NCBI GenBank assembly: GCA_025774245.1
Contig: JALGWI010000002.1
Coordinates: 1 to 64,000 of the forward strand
Source of the DNA: a bacterium
GTDB taxonomy: Bacteria > Joyebacterota > Joyebacteria > Joyebacterales > Joyebacteraceae
Direction of reading: 5' to 3'
DNA length: 64,000 nucleotides
Positions within the stretch are counted from its first letter, which is position 1. Every line of letters begins with the position of its first letter. Below the pieces are notes generated by a model. It was not told the origin of the DNA. It ran no database searches and saw only the letters and a list, made by a program, of their open reading frames with translations. Shown in pieces: positions 7,825 to 43,662 of the stretch. The position numbers were made by a program, and so were the translations under genes.

Positions 7825-8757
7825 CTAGCCGCCGAAGGCCATGGAGAGCGAGATCCGGTGCGTCGACTGCAGCTCTTTGTAGTCGCCGTAGGTGTAGTCG
7901 AGCTGGAAGTCGCTGTACCGGAAGCCGGCGCCGAAACCGAAGTTCCCGAACTCTGTACCGGTCTTGTACCCGGCACGGAGCGCCAGCATCTTGTAGATCC
8001 AGACCTCACCACCGAGCGCCCAGTAGAGCGACCGATTCTGAGGATACATCGCGTCCACCGTGAAGAGGAGGTCCACGTACGAAATCTGCTCGTCCAGCGT
8101 CGCGTACGAGCCGCCGAAGCCGAAGGTGAGCGTCTGCTCGACCTCGGTCCCCGCGAACTTGTACTTCGTTCCGAGGTTCTTCACGACCCCGCCGAGCTGG
8201 ACCTGCTCGTTCATGAGACCGTACTGGACACCCAGGTTCACACCGAGCGCCGTGCCCGTCACGTCGTCGAGACTACCCTGGACGACCTGGCCCGTGACGC
8301 CCGCCTTGAGACCGCAGACACTCGGGACCTCGAAGCCGTAGCCGCCGATGAACCCGAAGTTGTAGGCGCTGGCGGTCTCGCCGAAGCCGTCGCCGTCTCC
8401 TTCGAACACGGAAACGCTTCCGAGATCGAAGTAGGCGAGCCCGAGCGCAAGCGCACCTTCACCGCTCGGGAAGCCCACGCCGAGATAGGTGTAGCTCGAG
8501 TCCATGAGCCAGTCGACCGCACTCACGCCAACCTGGACGCGATCGATGTTCGCGAGGCCCGACGGGTTGTACGTCAGGCTCCACAGATCGCCGGGAGCCG
8601 CGTGGTATCCGGCCATGCCGGCCGGACGCGCTCCCACCCCGATCGCGAACACGTCCAGATACGTGCTCCCCGCATTCCCGTCATCAGCCGTGGCAACGCC
8701 CGTCACGAGCATCGCGGCGACCAGTGCGAGAGCGGGAAGACCGATCTTTCTCATCAT
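7825..8757 (-). CDS. PorV/PorQ-family outer-membrane beta-barrel protein
   Basis: A 310-residue exported protein. Residues 1-24 are a clear signal peptide ending ATA/DDG. The start of the mature protein (YLDVFAIGVGARPAGMAGYHA...SLTYNPSGLA) is the hallmark of the PorV/PorQ (UPF0164) family. Alternating beta strands follow, and the C-terminus closes as a barrel (RISLSMAFGG). In Bacteroidetes PorV is the shuttle that hands type IX secretion cargo to the surface; many FCB-group bacteria have several paralogs. It lies 67 nt downstream of the giant protein gene on the same strand, separated by a hairpin, so read-through could co-express them. Function in secretion is inference from family and context. 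The RBS is AAGGAGG. Confidence 0.85.
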   Translation of the reverse strand: MMRKIGLPALALVAAMLVTGVATADDGNAGSTYLDVFAIGVGARPAGMAGYHAAPGDLWSLTYNPSGLANIDRVQVGVSAVDWLMDSSYTYLGVGFPSGEGALALGLAYFDLGSVSVFEGDGDGFGETASAYNFGFIGGYGFEVPSVCGLKAGVTGQVVQGSLDDVTGTALGVNLGVQYGLMNEQVQLGGVVKNLGTKYKFAGTEVEQTLTFGFGGSYATLDEQISYVDLLFTVDAMYPQNRSLYWALGGEVWIYKMLALRAGYKTGTEFGNFGFGAGFRYSDFQLDYTYGDYKELQSTHRISLSMAFGG

Positions 8758-19577: not shown

Positions 19578-20860
19578 CCGTCCTCGTCCTCGAACCCGTC
19601 GAGGTCTTCCTTTTCGTCGGGGCACATGTCTCGTTCGTCGACGATCCCGTCGCCGTCGTTGTCGAGATCCGGAACGCCGTCGCTGTCCTCGAACCCGTCG
19701 AAGTCCTCAGCCTGGAGCGGTGCACCGTCGAGCGCGTCGTGGATGCCGTCGCCGTCGTTGTCGAGATCGGGGCACCCATCCTCGTCCTGGTACCCGTCGA
19801 AGTCCTCCGGGCGGCGGGGGCAGGCGTCCTCGTAGTCCGGGATGCCATCGCCGTCCGTGTCGGCCGCCGAGACCGGCCACGCGTAGGCGACGGCGACCGT
19901 CAGCTCCCAGTCCGGGTAGGCATTGTGGGGATCGAAGTCGGTCGACGCATCGTCGCCCGAGATCGCGACGCCGAAGCCCGCCGTGGCGCTCCAGCCGTCG
20001 CCGAACCGCACGCGGAGTCCGGGCGTCACGGTGAGCGGGTTCTCCTTGAGCGCCACGACCTCGCGGCTCTGGATGATGTCTGCGCGGAACTCCGTGAAGA
20101 GGCTCACGTTCTCGCCGGGGAACTCGACCGCGCCGCGCAGGATCAGGGCGTCGTTGTCGGTGCCGCTCCCCCCCTCGGGCACGGGCGGATAGTAGTCCGG
20201 ATAGAACCTGCGGCCGTGGTCGTCCCGCCCGTGGAACGCCCAGCCGATGTTCGCGTGGAGCCGCATGGGGAAGCTGGCCGTGAAGTCGCCGGTGGCGAGG
20301 AGCATGATCTCGGAGTCGGGGTTCTTCCCACCCGTGAGGTAGGTTCGCCCCTCGCAGGCGCTGTCGACCCAGAGCTCGTCACCCGCAGCGAACCCGAAAC
20401 GCCCCTCGAAGGCCAGGAGGAACGAGGGCGTCCACTGGGGCACGCCAACCTTGACGCCGAGCATGGGGTTGTCGAGGCCGGTGACGGGGTTCGAACCCTC
20501 CACGCCTTCGTCCCACGCGGCTCGCCGCGTGCGCAGATCGAAGGACAGCTCGAGCCAGTCGGTGAGGCCGTAGTTCCCGGCCAGGTGGAGGCTCGTGTAC
20601 GAACCGGGCCGCGCGTCGTCGAGGCAGGCCGTCAGGTCGCGCGATTCGTAGTAGTGGGCCGCGAGCGAGAAAGCGAGAACGCCGCGGGTCTGAGGCGCGG
20701 CGGATCGCACGAGGATGAGCCCCGCGCTCCCATACGCCGAGCACTCGCACGAAAGCGTCACGGCAGAGGCGATAGCAGGCACGAGGAGCGACACGACGGC
20801 GAGTGCCGCGATCGCGGAAGGAGCGGTCCGGTTCCTGGACCTCGGACTCGGCTTCGTCAT
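19562..20860 (-). CDS. outer-membrane beta-barrel protein with C-terminal TSP3 repeats
   Basis: A 432-residue exported protein. Residues ~15-33 form a signal peptide ([18 protein letters not shown]). Residues ~35-330 show alternating hydrophobic strands typical of an outer-membrane barrel ([29 protein letters not shown]). Residues ~333-432 are TSP3 repeats ([18 protein letters not shown]). Such a barrel-plus-TSP3 layout usually continues into an OmpA-like peptidoglycan-binding domain, but here the frame stops at DEDGCPDR, inside the last repeat, where the NUDIX start begins. Its ATG overlaps the DUF1844 stop (ATGA). It could be a naturally short form or a truncated gene. Confidence 0.82.
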
Positions 20861-35914: not shown

Positions 35915-35998
35915 GGAGCCGGGCGACGACGGTGGCCGGAGAACGACGCTGGCCAGAGAGCGACGGTGGCCAGACAACGACGCCGGCCCGGCGACGCC
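35915..35998. repeat. 17-bp tandem repeats in the gatA-gatB gap
   Basis: Three well-matched 17-bp units occupy 35932-35948, 35949-35965 and 35966-35982. In plus-strand reading they are GTGGCCGGAGAACGACG, CTGGCCAGAGAGCGACG and GTGGCCAGACAACGACG. Degenerate copies flank them on both sides, filling the space from the gatA stop to near the gatB RBS. The unit is not a multiple of three, which argues against this stretch being coding. Confidence 0.75.
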
Positions 35999-37835: not shown

Positions 37836-40061
37836 TCAACCAGTAACGGGCGTGAGTTTGCCGTACCTTACCATGATCCTCTTCTCGATGTCATCGGCGA
37901 ACCGGACCCGCACGATCGCGTCGGGACCGACCCCGGACACATCCAGCACGACGCCCTCTCCCCAGGTGGGGTGCGCGACCCTGGCGCCGGGCGCGAGCGC
38001 GACCTCCTCCTGCGAGAATCCTTCGTAGTCGGGGAAGACGTCGGCCCTCGCGCGTCTCGCCGGGCGCCGGGGCGTCGCCCCCGCCGCCGGCCGGCTTCTC
38101 GCCACGGCGAACGAGACCGTCTCGAGGTGCTCGGGCTCGATCTCGTCGAGGAATCGCGACGGCGCCCGCATGTCGGTGACGCCTGCCCTGCGGCGTGTGT
38201 CGGCACAGAAGATGCGGAGCTCGTCCATGGCGCGCGTCATGCCGACGTAGAACAGGCGGCGTTCCTCCTCCAGCTCGTCGTCGTCCTCGTACGCGGACAC
38301 GTGCGGCAGGAGCCCGTCCTCAAGTCCGGGGATGATGACGACCGGGAACTCGAGCCCCTTCGCGTTGTGGAGGGTCATGAGCGAGACCGCGATCGCCTGG
38401 TCGTCCCAGCGATCGATGTCCGCGACGAGAGAGACCTGCTCGAGGAACGCGCCGAGGCTCTCCTCCCCGCTCGCGTCGATGAACTCGCTTGCTGCCGACA
38501 CGAGCTCCTCCACGTTGGCGAGCCGCTGCGAGGCGTCCTCGCTCTTCCGGCCCTCGAGCCACGTGACGTAGCCGGACTCCTCGACGACCTTCGTGACGAT
38601 CTCTGCGGCCGGCGCGCTCTCGGCGAGGGCGCGGAGGCGTCCGAACGTCGCGGCGAGGGCGGTCGCCGACTTCGCCGCCGAGGCGGGGATTCCGTCGATC
38701 TCGACCGCCACGCCCAGGACCTCGAGCAGCGTAATGCCCCGCTCGGCCGCCGCGGCGGCGAGCCTCTCGGCGCTCTTCTCACCGATCTTTCTGGGCGGGA
38801 CGTTGAGGATCCTGGCGAGGCTCACCCCGTCGGCCGGATTCGCGATCACGCGGAGGTACGCGAGGACGTCCTTGACCTCGGCGCGCTCGTAGAACCGGAC
38901 ACCGCCGATGATATCGTACGGGATCCCGCCCCGCCTGAGGCTGTCTTCGATCACCCTCGACTGGGCGTGCGTCCTGTAGAGGACGGCGAAGTCGTGGTAG
39001 TTCCTCTCCCCCTCGCCCACCCGCGCGAGGACCGCGTCCCGGATCGCGTCGGCCTCCTGGTACTCGTTCGAAACGCGAGCGAGCGTCACCGGCAATCCGG
39101 CGTCGCGCTCGGTCCAGAGCTTCTTCTCCTTGCGCCTCGCGTTCCGGGCGACGACGTCGTGCGCGGCGTCGAGGATGTTCCTGGTCGAACGGTAGTTCTG
39201 CTCGAGCGCCAGGACCCTGGCGTCGGGATGGTCCTTCTCGAAATCGAGGATGTTCGTGATGTCGGCGCCGCGCCAGCCGTAGATCGACTGGTCGTCGTCC
39301 CCGACGACGCAGATGTTCCGGTGGTGTCCGGAGAGCAGATTCACCAGCGCGTACTGGGCGTGGCTCGTGTCCTGGTACTCGTCGACGAGCACGTGCTCGA
39401 AGCGCGTCGAGTACGCGGTAAGGACGGGCGGGTTCTCCCGGAACAGCTCGACGGCGCGCATGATCAGATCGTCGAAGTCGAGCGCGTTGTTGCGGACGAG
39501 GCCCTTCTCGTACTCCGCGTAGACCTTCGCCACGCACTCCTCGAAGTAGCCTCCGCCCTCGGACGCGTACGCCTGCGCCGTGAGGAGCCGGTCCTTCGCC
39601 CGCGAGATCGCCGACAGAATCGCCTTCGGCGCGAAGACCGACGCGGCGACGCCCGCCTTCTCCATGCACTCTTTCACGAGATCGATCTGATCGGTGCCGT
39701 CGTAGATCGAGAAGGCCGGCGTCCACCAGCCCCAGCGGGCCTCGATCCTGAGCATCCTCGCGCACATCGAGTGGAACGTCCCGACCCACGCGAGCCCTGC
39801 GTCGGACCCGACGAGCGCCGCGATCCTCCGCCTCATCTCCTCGGCAGCCTTGTTCGTGAAGGTGACCGCGAGGATGCGCCGCGGGCTCACGCCGAGCTCT
39901 TTGACCAGATACGCGATCCGGTAGGTCAGGACGCGCGTCTTGCCGCTCCCGGCTCCCGCGAGCACAAGGAGCGGCCCGTCGCCATGACGGACCGCGGCCT
40001 CCTGAACCTCGTTGAGATCATTGAGAAAGTCCGTCGCCAGTCTGAGACCTCCGATCGTCAT
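37836..40061 (-). CDS. pcrA: ATP-dependent DNA helicase PcrA/UvrD
   Basis: An SF1A 3'-5' helicase for repair and replication-fork maintenance, 741 residues. Motifs in order: LNEVQEAAV (Q motif), GAGSGKTR (Walker A), TFTNKAAEEM (Ia), DEYQD (II), GDDDQSIYGWRGA (III), QNYRST (IV), MTLHNAKGLEFPVV (V) and EERRLFYVGMTRA (VI). The C-terminal ~60 residues (APGARVAHPTWGEGVVLDV) are the Tudor-like RNA-polymerase-binding domain of PcrA-type proteins. The start is taken at ATG 40061; the RBS is not strong. It heads the pcrA-gatCAB transcript. Confidence 0.95.
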   Translation of the reverse strand: MTIGGLRLATDFLNDLNEVQEAAVRHGDGPLLVLAGAGSGKTRVLTYRIAYLVKELGVSPRRILAVTFTNKAAEEMRRRIAALVGSDAGLAWVGTFHSMCARMLRIEARWGWWTPAFSIYDGTDQIDLVKECMEKAGVAASVFAPKAILSAISRAKDRLLTAQAYASEGGGYFEECVAKVYAEYEKGLVRNNALDFDDLIMRAVELFRENPPVLTAYSTRFEHVLVDEYQDTSHAQYALVNLLSGHHRNICVVGDDDQSIYGWRGADITNILDFEKDHPDARVLALEQNYRSTRNILDAAHDVVARNARRKEKKLWTERDAGLPVTLARVSNEYQEADAIRDAVLARVGEGERNYHDFAVLYRTHAQSRVIEDSLRRGGIPYDIIGGVRFYERAEVKDVLAYLRVIANPADGVSLARILNVPPRKIGEKSAERLAAAAAERGITLLEVLGVAVEIDGIPASAAKSATALAATFGRLRALAESAPAAEIVTKVVEESGYVTWLEGRKSEDASQRLANVEELVSAASEFIDASGEESLGAFLEQVSLVADIDRWDDQAIAVSLMTLHNAKGLEFPVVIIPGLEDGLLPHVSAYEDDDELEEERRLFYVGMTRAMDELRIFCADTRRRAGVTDMRAPSRFLDEIEPEHLETVSFAVARSRPAAGATPRRPARRARADVFPDYEGFSQEEVALAPGARVAHPTWGEGVVLDVSGVGPDAIVRVRFADDIEKRIMVRYGKLTPVTG

Positions 40062-40208
40062 CGGGGGGAGGGCGGCGACCCGGCGGGCGACCCGGAAAGA
40101 GCAGCACGTCCGGCGACCGGGCCCGCGATTCGCGCGGCGGTCGGTCCGGCCGGCTACCCGTCCGGATGCTCGGCCCGAATCCCGGGGCGTCGCTGTCAGG
40201 GGAACGCT

Positions 40209-40892
40209 CTAGAACTCCGCGCCCATCGCGAAGTGCATCCGCATCGGTCCGCTCGTCCTGCCGTTGCTCGGCCACGCCCAGTCGAACCGCAGGACGAAAT
40301 AGCCGAGGTTTATGCGGGCGCCGAACCCGTAGGCGGCCATGATGTCGTCGAGCCGCCGTCCCAGAGCCCCACTCGAGACGCCCCGGAACTTCTCTTCCCA
40401 CGCCGCGCCGGCGTCGAGAAACACCACGCCACGCACGTTCCACAGCGCCAGGGGAAGCGGTGATCCGATCTCGAGACGGCGAAGCAGGGGGAACCTCAGC
40501 TCGATGCTGGTGAGGATGAGATTGTGGCCCCGGAACTGGAAGTCCCCGAACCCCCTGAGGCCGTTGACGCCGCCCATGTAGAAGTACTGGGCGCTCTGGG
40601 ACGAGCTGCGCGCCCCGAGGAACTTCAGCGCAAGCGTGTGCTCCGGCCCGATCCTCACGTACTTCCTGATGTCGCCGACCGCCGAGAGGTAGTCGAAGCT
40701 CCCGTCGGGATCCCAGCCCTTCGAGAGGGAGATCGAGTACCTGCCCCCTCCGACGGGCCCGACGGAACCCCAGAGCGTCGTGTCGTTGACGAGCCGGACG
40801 CTCGGGATGAGGAGCTGCCTTCTCTCCTGTTCCTCGGTCGGCTCGATGTAGCCCTCGTCGTTCTCGGCCAGGTACTTCCTGTCGATCGACAT
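40209..40892 (-). CDS. C-terminal Omp85/BamA-type barrel fragment of the frameshifted gene
   Basis: The last 227 codons of the barrel in their own frame, opening at MSIDRKYLAENDEGY. The Omp85 signature MGGVNGLRGFGDFQFRG and the closing strands YFVLRFDWAW...MRMHFAMGAEF are intact, ending in the aromatic Phe typical of outer-membrane barrels. No RBS precedes its ATG, so it is unlikely to be an independent gene. Confidence 0.75.
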   Translation of the reverse strand: MSIDRKYLAENDEGYIEPTEEQERRQLLIPSVRLVNDTTLWGSVGPVGGGRYSISLSKGWDPDGSFDYLSAVGDIRKYVRIGPEHTLALKFLGARSSSQSAQYFYMGGVNGLRGFGDFQFRGHNLILTSIELRFPLLRRLEIGSPLPLALWNVRGVVFLDAGAAWEEKFRGVSSGALGRRLDDIMAAYGFGARINLGYFVLRFDWAWPSNGRTSGPMRMHFAMGAEF

Positions 40893-40943
40893 CGCCGCGA
40901 GGTCGAACTCGATCCGACATCGCCGCGAGGTCGAACTCGATCC
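40888..40943. repeat. 28-bp perfect tandem duplication causing a frameshift
   Basis: Positions 40888-40915 and 40916-40943 are identical 28-bp copies starting GACATCGCCGCGAGG and ending ACTCGATCC. Because 28 is not a multiple of three, the second copy shifts the reading frame of the surrounding gene; deleting one copy restores it. Confidence 0.95.
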
Positions 40944-43633
40944 GCGTGAACTTGCTGAACGGGTATTCGAGCGACGCGGTGGCGCCGAAGCTGCGCTCCG
41001 TGAAGTAGCGCCTCTTGCCCAGGTACTCGCCCAGCTGGGTGCGGTCCGAGTAGTAGTTCTCGGTGAAATTGTAGAGCCCGATGGAGTAGTTGAAACGGTG
41101 CGAGAGGTTCTCGTACCGGACGTACAAGTTGCTGGCCTCGATGCTCGTGAAGAGGTCGGCCGCGATGTAGAACCGGTGGTTGCCGAGGACGTCGCTGATG
41201 GCGATCTCGGCGCCGGCGGAGAACCCGAAACTCGACGTGTACGCGAGCCCGCCGGTCACGTAGTCCGGCGCGAACCGGGGCCTGTACGGCTCGATCTTCC
41301 CGAGGTCCCTCGGCTCGTCCTCCATGTCCGCGCCCGGCGTGTGGACGCCGGAGGCCTTGGCGTACGCCTCGCGGGCCTTCGCCACGGCGTCGTCGTCCCG
41401 GTCGTCATCGTAGTCCGACCCGTCCGCGTACTGCTCCGAACTCCCGGGCGCGCTCTCGTCCGAAGCGTCGGACGTGGCTTCTCCGCCGCTCTCGAACCGG
41501 TCCCCGTCAAGCGCGTCCGGGTCCTCGTGAGGACCCTCACCGCCGTAGACACGCTCCGGCTCTCCGGTCCCCTCGCTCGCTCCGCCGTTGCGCTCTTCCG
41601 CAGCAGTCTGTCCGGCGAACAGCTTCCCGTTGCCGTTCCCGTTGCCATTCCCCGCGCCCGCATGCCCTGACGGGTTTCCGCCGAGGGGCGGACCTTCCGC
41701 CACGGCGACCGCCGCCGCGCCGACCGCGGCCGCCCCCGCGGGGGCGGGAGACGGACCGATGAAATCGGCCTCGGCGATCACCTCGACGTCGGGCCTCGTC
41801 GGCTCGTCGGGAACCTCCTGCTTGATGCTCGGGAACCACCCGTTCTCGTCGATCACCTCTTCGAAGCGGGAGAGCGGGTTCTTGACCACGGCGATGTCCC
41901 AGCCGCCCTCGCTGTACAGCTGGAACGCGGCCCAGTCGGCCTCGCGCGCCCAGCTCGGCGCCTTGGCCCCGCCGAGAAGATCGGTGGCCAACACGCTCAA
42001 CCCGGTCTCCAGGTCGGCCATGTAGATCGCGGGCGAGCCGTGCATGTCGGACCCGTAGGCCATGAGCTCCCCGTGGTGTGCCCAGGCGGGCGACCCGTCG
42101 CGGCCGGGCGTCGCCACCAGTCGGGTGACCTCGAGCGTCTCGATGTCCATGGAGTAGATGTCGTAGTCGCGCCTGAAGCCCATTTCGGGCGGGGAGTCGC
42201 GATCGGACGAGAAGGCGACCTTCGATCCGTCGGGCGACCACTCGGGATCGCGCTCGTCGAAGAAGTCGTCGGTGAGCTGCCGGGGCTCGGCGCCGTCGAC
42301 GTCGGTCAGGTAGAGGTCGGACGCCCCGTTCTTCAAGCCGACGAAGACGATGCTGCGGCCGTCAGGAGACCAGGAGGGCGTGAATATCCCGTCGAGGTCG
42401 TACCGGTGGCTCGCGACGATGTCCCCGGACTCGGCGTCGGCGAAGTGGAGCGCGTCGCTCCTGCCCGCCTTCGTCGCGAAGCAGATCTGGCTCGCGTCGG
42501 GCGACCAGGCGAACCCGGTCCGGAGAATGTGAAGCGCCTCGAACTCGTCGGTCACCTCTCCGCTCACCACGTGGTGAAGCGTCCTGCCATCGAGGGTCGA
42601 GGACACGAAGACGTTCGCCGTCCGGTTCCTGTCGGACACGAAGACGACCTTCTTCCCGTCCGGCGAGATCGCGGGGCCGAAGTTGAAGTACGAGTCGTCC
42701 TCGCGATGGTCCGTCACGAACGTCGCGAGCCGGTCGCCGTCGTCGCGCTCGGTCACCTCCGGCCAGTACTTCTCCTGGAGCCATTCGTGCCATTCCTCGG
42801 AGAGCTCCGGCGTCATGAGGCCGATCGTCTCGCGGAGCGCGGCGTCGAGGTTGTGTGTCTTGGCGATCGCCTTGACGATCTCCGCGATCTTCTCGCGGCC
42901 GTAGCGCTCCGCGATGAAGTTGAGGACCGACTGACCTCCCTTGTAGACGAGGTACCCGCCGTAGAGATACTCGAGAGGAACGACCAGGTCGGAGACCGTG
43001 AGGTCCCGGAGAATCATCTCGGCCTCGGGGTCCCACCCCATGGACGTGTACTCGGCGAGACCCTCGACGAACCAGAGCGGCACGGGGTTCGTGTACGCCT
43101 GCCGGATGACGGACTCGACGAGCCCGCCGTAGACGATGTCGAACATGAAGACGTGGGTGAGCTCGTGGTAGAGGACGTGGCGCAGGTCGTCGTACGAGCC
43201 GGTGAAGGGGATCACCACGCGGTTCTTGAAGAGCTCCGTGAAGCCGCCGACCGTCTCCTCGACGTGAGACAGGGAGACGTTCGTCTGCTGGAACTCGTTG
43301 TGGGAATTGTAGAGGATGATGGGGATGATCGCCGTGAGCTCGTGGCCCAGCAGAACCTCGAAGTCCGCGTTCGCGTCCTCGATGATCTGGCTGGCGGCGT
43401 CGGCGATGTCCTCGCCGCCCTCATAGAAGTAGACGTCGAAGTGCTCTGTGTGGATGATCCGCCAGTCGAAGCTCCTGTACTGGACCTTGTTGCGGCCGAA
43501 CGCCGTGTCGGCGGACGCGCCGTGGGCGCAGAGGAGCGCCACGAGCACGATCGCCACGACGAACGCCGAACGTCTTGATCTGGCCATGTTCAGTCTGCGC
43601 ATGGTTCTGTCCGAGCTCCGGCCGTCACTACTG

Positions 43634-43662
43634 ATTCTAGACCTATGTCCGGGTTCTGTCAA
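43634..43662 (-). promoter_or_regulatory. promoter of the peptidase/Omp85 gene
   Basis: The minus strand reads TTGACA (43662-43657), a 17-nt spacer and TAGAAT (43639-43634). It is among the best promoter matches in the window. The leader to ATG 43602 is about 25 nt. Confidence 0.8.

Follow-up and report, generated by a model that had tools for sequence, protein, structure and literature searches.

The window analysed here, i.e., bases 1-64000 of the 162,647-bp contig C30 from the draft assembly of genome G000 (3.23 Mb in 128 contigs), carries a perfect 28-bp tandem duplication within a minus-strand gene that combines Peptidase_MA_2, a PD40/TolB-like propeller and an Omp85 barrel, and the barrel part of this gene is split between two reading frames at the repeat. 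With slightly better than even confidence, we take this to be a young slippage duplication, meaning a real mutation that would inactivate a gene of the WD40-Omp85 type in the sampled population.

The two perfect copies postulated by the first-pass annotation are indeed identical and directly adjacent to each other (Table 1). With up to three mismatches allowed, the 28-bp unit was found at these two places only within the window, none of 100 shuffles contained two matches to it, and from composition a 28-base match at a lag of 28 is expected about 1e-11 times per 64 kb; the repeat match is far beyond chance. The first-pass annotation had further claimed that the repeat breaks the reading frame, which is borne out by the congener G001, in which one ORF covers both window pieces; these align in frames -3 and -1, with the junction located at the repeat. 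From the repeat onward, the front ORF (40018-43662, minus strand) no longer follows the conserved protein and reads on out of frame, and the barrel end is found in a different frame with its stop at 40209. On the intact ortholog P0003 (1129-aa form), the break falls near residue 905, roughly one third into the barrel.

The front piece (P0001) and the rear barrel piece (P0002) were used as separate queries for domain assignment, and the resulting Peptidase_MA_2, PD40 and PF01103 matches agree with the order of peptidase, propeller and Omp85 barrel that had been read earlier. PD40 matched the front piece with an E-value of 8.1e-26, the TolB model matched with 6.5e-41, a match that falls short of the equivalog cut-off, and the NCBIfam matches to TolB-type propeller, BamA-type barrel and TamL-type barrel all stayed under their curated cut-offs. 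PF01103 was recovered both on the barrel piece of the window (E 7.8e-14) and on P0003 (E 6.6e-13), whereby the Pfam Omp85 match covers residues 863-1129 of the latter and the BamA model sets in from residue 792. A structure prediction for the intact ortholog, built from 3 sequences, reached a mean pLDDT of 36 and gave no usable model of the barrel, which in the WD40-Omp85 class would be a closed one of 16 strands in the outer membrane. Downstream of the gene, a UvrD-type helicase is followed by gatC-, gatA- (amidase) and gatB-type genes; the ortholog in G008 (L033) is one ORF of 1141 aa, likewise followed by a helicase-like ORF as judged by eye. Two other tandem repeats were seen in the window, one with a 17-bp unit in 3.4 copies and 85% matches at the gatA/gatB boundary (35926-35982) and an imperfect one with a 99-bp unit in 2.2 copies and 76% matches (19643-19862).

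Table 1. Positions of the tandem duplication, the parts of the broken gene and its downstream neighbour within the window.
Feature	Position	Strand	Basis or remark
Peptidase_MA_2 domain (PF13485), HELTH motif in translation	42775..43353	-	residues 80-272 of P0001
PD40 beta-propeller, TolB-type matches below TolB equivalog cut-off	41821..42687	-	approximate extent, by eye
Omp85-type barrel, first third, in the propeller frame	40944..41265	-	P0003 alignment; start by eye
Whole period-28 tract, 58 bp	40887..40944	.	one further matching base per end, i.e., 2 bp junction overlap
Second 28-bp copy, identical to the first	40916..40943	-	sequence comparison
First 28-bp copy of the tandem duplication (plus-strand order)	40888..40915	-	sequence comparison
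Omp85-type barrel, other two thirds, in a different frame; stop after conserved C-terminus	40209..40913	-	PF01103
UvrD/PcrA-type helicase, downstream neighbour	37836..40061	-	domain match

The site was followed through the relatives by searching the barrel piece in 60 of them and in G000 itself, using collections that hold one genome per species; 19 other genomes represented the family, and the front-piece search covered 12 of these. A strong barrel ortholog was identified in 17 of the 19, and every one of the 17 has one copy and an open frame at the site, with a longest periodic run of 6-10 bases as compared to 30 in G000. In G010 the front part is present and stops 2 bases short of the end of its contig, before the duplication site, so that the gene was found at least partly in 18 of the 19 genomes; G003 gave no ortholog-strength match with either gene piece as query. 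The genome-contig scan for relatives, from which records of the window's own genome or of a very close one may be missing, yielded one match; this is the ortholog of G008, which derives from an unclassified metagenome bin. Among the genomes seen, the duplication is hence private to G000, where perfect adjacent copies within the gene are combined with their absence from the relatives, as is characteristic of an intragenic tandem duplication. It had been proposed from the window that a single copy restores one continuous frame and that sister genomes should be compared; one copy with a continuous frame is what all family relatives covering the site possess, and no relative with the duplication was encountered. 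Two relatives hold perfect tandem copies of their own at the ortholog locus (L008:1833-1926 and L019:963-1037), of 42 and 30 bp, both multiples of 3; these lie elsewhere than the break, probably within the segment that links the propeller to the barrel.

The barrel part behind the break does not show decay, as judged from pN/pS against four relatives and from the barrel piece, which is open down to its stop. The before/after comparison used 4 of 9 relatives, namely those with a full-length ORF picked up by the filter, and pN/pS changed from 0.483 before the break to 0.501 after it for G001 (226 codons aligned after the break), from 0.534 to 0.508 for G008, from 0.427 to 0.505 for G005 and from 0.487 to 0.512 for G011; for the same two pieces of the barrel, values of 0.27 to 0.58 were obtained from six pairs of relatives with an intact gene. 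Owing to the large synonymous change, these values argue against an old loss and cannot date a recent one. The earlier claim that the event is very recent is thus supported as far as the data reach, with identical copies and an undecayed barrel after the break. Between G001 and G002, a further genome of the same genus, pN/pS is 0.18-0.26 for the gene and 0.18 for the next ORF, located in the helicase's place, which shows strong constraint, i.e., purifying selection acting on the gene between these two genomes. As the gene is conserved and under such selection, finding it lost in the assembled allele is somewhat unexpected and counts against a real mutation.

Considering these data, the slippage reading assumes that a single young replication slippage event duplicated 28 bp in tandem within the barrel part. 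The extra 28 bp shift the frame, since 28 is not a multiple of 3, and the product would retain peptidase and propeller, with some two thirds of the barrel missing, the C-terminal end among them; lacking these, it should not insert into the outer membrane. The allele would most likely be a loss-of-function allele, either recent or confined to the strain level, and one copy could be lost again by slippage, as is the case for any perfect tandem duplication, but would not be a dedicated switch. The exact overlap at the duplication junction amounts to 2 bp only, which counts against slippage as origin. A hairpin as driver of the duplication was considered as well and rejected, as folding is unremarkable, with the imperfect stem over the 28-bp unit scoring no better than expected (z -1.38 and -0.65). 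Taken by itself, a duplication of this sort is an ordinary, known kind of event.

It is possible, if rather doubtful, that the true sequence holds one copy and that the duplication was made by the assembler or during gap filling. Consistent with such an artefact, the assembly is a draft of 128 contigs, a single copy is the state of every relative whose gene extends over the site, and the barrel is undecayed after the break; false pseudogenes are known to arise from erroneous assembly, as stated in the available part of PMC11017572. Against it stands that the duplication is far from the ends of a long contig and that no other frame break survived among the C30 ORFs compared. For this comparison, ORFs of at least 150 aa from C30 were set against those of C14 (253,653 bp) of G001. 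A loose first count gave 6/105 frame-break candidates for G001 ORFs on G000 and 9/101 for G000 ORFs on G001, together with 3/9 and 2/8 on a contig of G002, most of which were taken to be ORF extensions over neighbouring genes. Upon removal of shadowed hits, frame changes were left in 3/123 (G001 on G000; the G001 ORFs include some spurious overlapping ones), in 1/124 (reverse direction) and in 1/9 and 1/10 (G002 contig). Two of the 3 candidates from the first direction, a pair of S21-like and YqeY-like genes and a site upstream of a tyrosyl-tRNA-synthetase-like gene (all named by eye), were dismissed on their reading frames, and the one of the reverse direction turned out to be an ORF extension over the upstream region, leaving the peptidase/propeller/Omp85 gene as the sole frame break surviving inspection among the ORFs compared on C30; this speaks against an assembly that is full of errors in general. 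A length of 28 bases is not known as a usual assembler overlap, a further point against an artefact.

The question whether tandem duplications of this kind occur elsewhere in G000 is addressed by an exact tandem-repeat scan of 735,247 bp (22.7%) of the genome, with unit lengths from 10 to 400 bp over the initial 393,074 bp and from 14 to 200 bp over the remainder. Besides the 28-bp pair, lysine-rich coding repeats and units of 10-16 bp, it revealed two perfect repeats. One, with a 23-bp unit in 4.65 copies, follows immediately on the stop of an AIRS-family gene (G000:C9, L100:10166-10272) and has the appearance of a natural variable-number repeat; the other is a 21-bp pair that keeps the frame and encodes ENWLIED twice in a protein kinase/TPR gene (G000:C11, L101:15830-15872). 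Both leave the likely reading frames intact, and they document that tandem duplication of such size does occur in G000. In 253,654 bp of G001, scanned with units of 14-200 bp, lysine-rich tandem repeats only were found. Should the 28-bp duplication be an error after all, the lesson would be that gene-breaking repeats in drafts need read support before a switch or a pseudogene is called.

The first-pass annotation had also offered a reversible phase switch, whereby slippage between the 28-bp copies toggles the barrel protein within the population. This appears unlikely: an envelope protein would be a fitting target, and by analogy duplications in pneumococcal capsule genes are said to phase-vary, yet the repeat has no more than two copies, G002 is broken by a gap at another point of the gene and not by a repeat, and none of the 17 relatives has a repeat at the site, so that nothing positive speaks for a standing switch. 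Slippage-type contingency loci are characterised by a repeat tract kept in relatives, and here the relatives have one copy throughout. Reversibility in principle applies to any perfect two-copy duplication and is no positive evidence for the switch that had been proposed.

The second broken copy resides in G002, whose ortholog changes frame across an 80-bp gap located in the propeller part, as compared to G001 and G000 (G002:C149, about position 8640; L054). With G001 as reference, no shared bases were seen at the gap junction. Slippage between two ACAGGA repeats, one of which lies in G001 5 bases inside the left edge of the gap and the other at its right edge, was considered as origin of the gap and rejected, as the junction is off the first copy and shares no bases. 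Across 7 G002 contigs (83,241 bp, 77 ORF-contig pairs), the gap is the only frame change, counted with a filter of more than 60 bits and more than 60% identity, under which a break involving a weakly conserved piece might go unnoticed; C149 had been chosen because it carries the gene, and the other 6 contigs (72,016 bp) gave no frame change. By our own estimate, which assumes that breaks are random and occur at most once per 72-162 kb, the chance of a 3.5-kb gene being hit in G002 is roughly 2-5%. The coinciding breaks of the same gene in G000 and G002, both of them drafts, are suggestive, not proof. They could be read as the WD40-Omp85 gene being a recurrent target of inactivation in the genus, by the 28-bp duplication in G000 and the 80-bp gap in G002, with on/off selection on the surface barrel, e.g., as a phage receptor, and the duplication as a revertible off state; we consider this quite improbable. 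That the gene is an established pseudogene, long lost in the lineage, can hardly be sustained and is already largely refuted by the undecayed barrel: G002 also has a broken copy, but the 28-bp copies are identical, strong constraint is seen between G001 and G002, the breaks differ between G000 and G002, and neither the relaxed constraint nor the further stops after the break that mark a decayed pseudogene were found in G000. If the slippage duplication is real, it would be a natural snapshot in which a large, uncharacterised outer-membrane protein has only recently, and reversibly, been lost; taken with the break in G002, it would be a hint that this protein has been selected against more than once.

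Among known systems, the intragenic duplications in pneumococcal capsule genes (type 3 locus, cap8E and tts), reportedly described by Waite et al. in 2001 and 2003 as leading to phase variation, come close to the case presented here. In serotype 8 pneumococcus, a tandem duplication within wchA abolished the capsule, according to the portion of PMC4022640 available. In both systems a duplication within an ORF inactivates a gene for a surface structure; unlike the capsule genes, for which phase variation is reported, the present case consists of one assembly and concerns another protein family. A medium-length tandem repeat differing in copy number is also found in Mycobacterium tuberculosis Erdman, where the accessible part of PMC12817950 describes a 57-bp repeat at dop whose copy number varies between strains or assemblies; there, strains were compared with deep long reads, whereas one state is known here. 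Concerning the protein itself, the WD40-Omp85 subfamily of the Omp85/TpsB superfamily was described as carrying a TolB-like propeller before the Omp85 barrel (Heinz and Lithgow 2014, PMC4104836, as far as the available text goes), and the gene studied here encodes both a C-terminal Omp85-type barrel and an N-terminal WD40/TolB-like propeller. Unlike the subfamily as described in that text, it has an additional N-terminal Peptidase_MA_2 domain and is broken in the window; the Omp85-metalloproteases treated in the same text use PF00149. Judged from its domain matches, the protein fits the WD40-Omp85 class with an added, putative peptidase domain.
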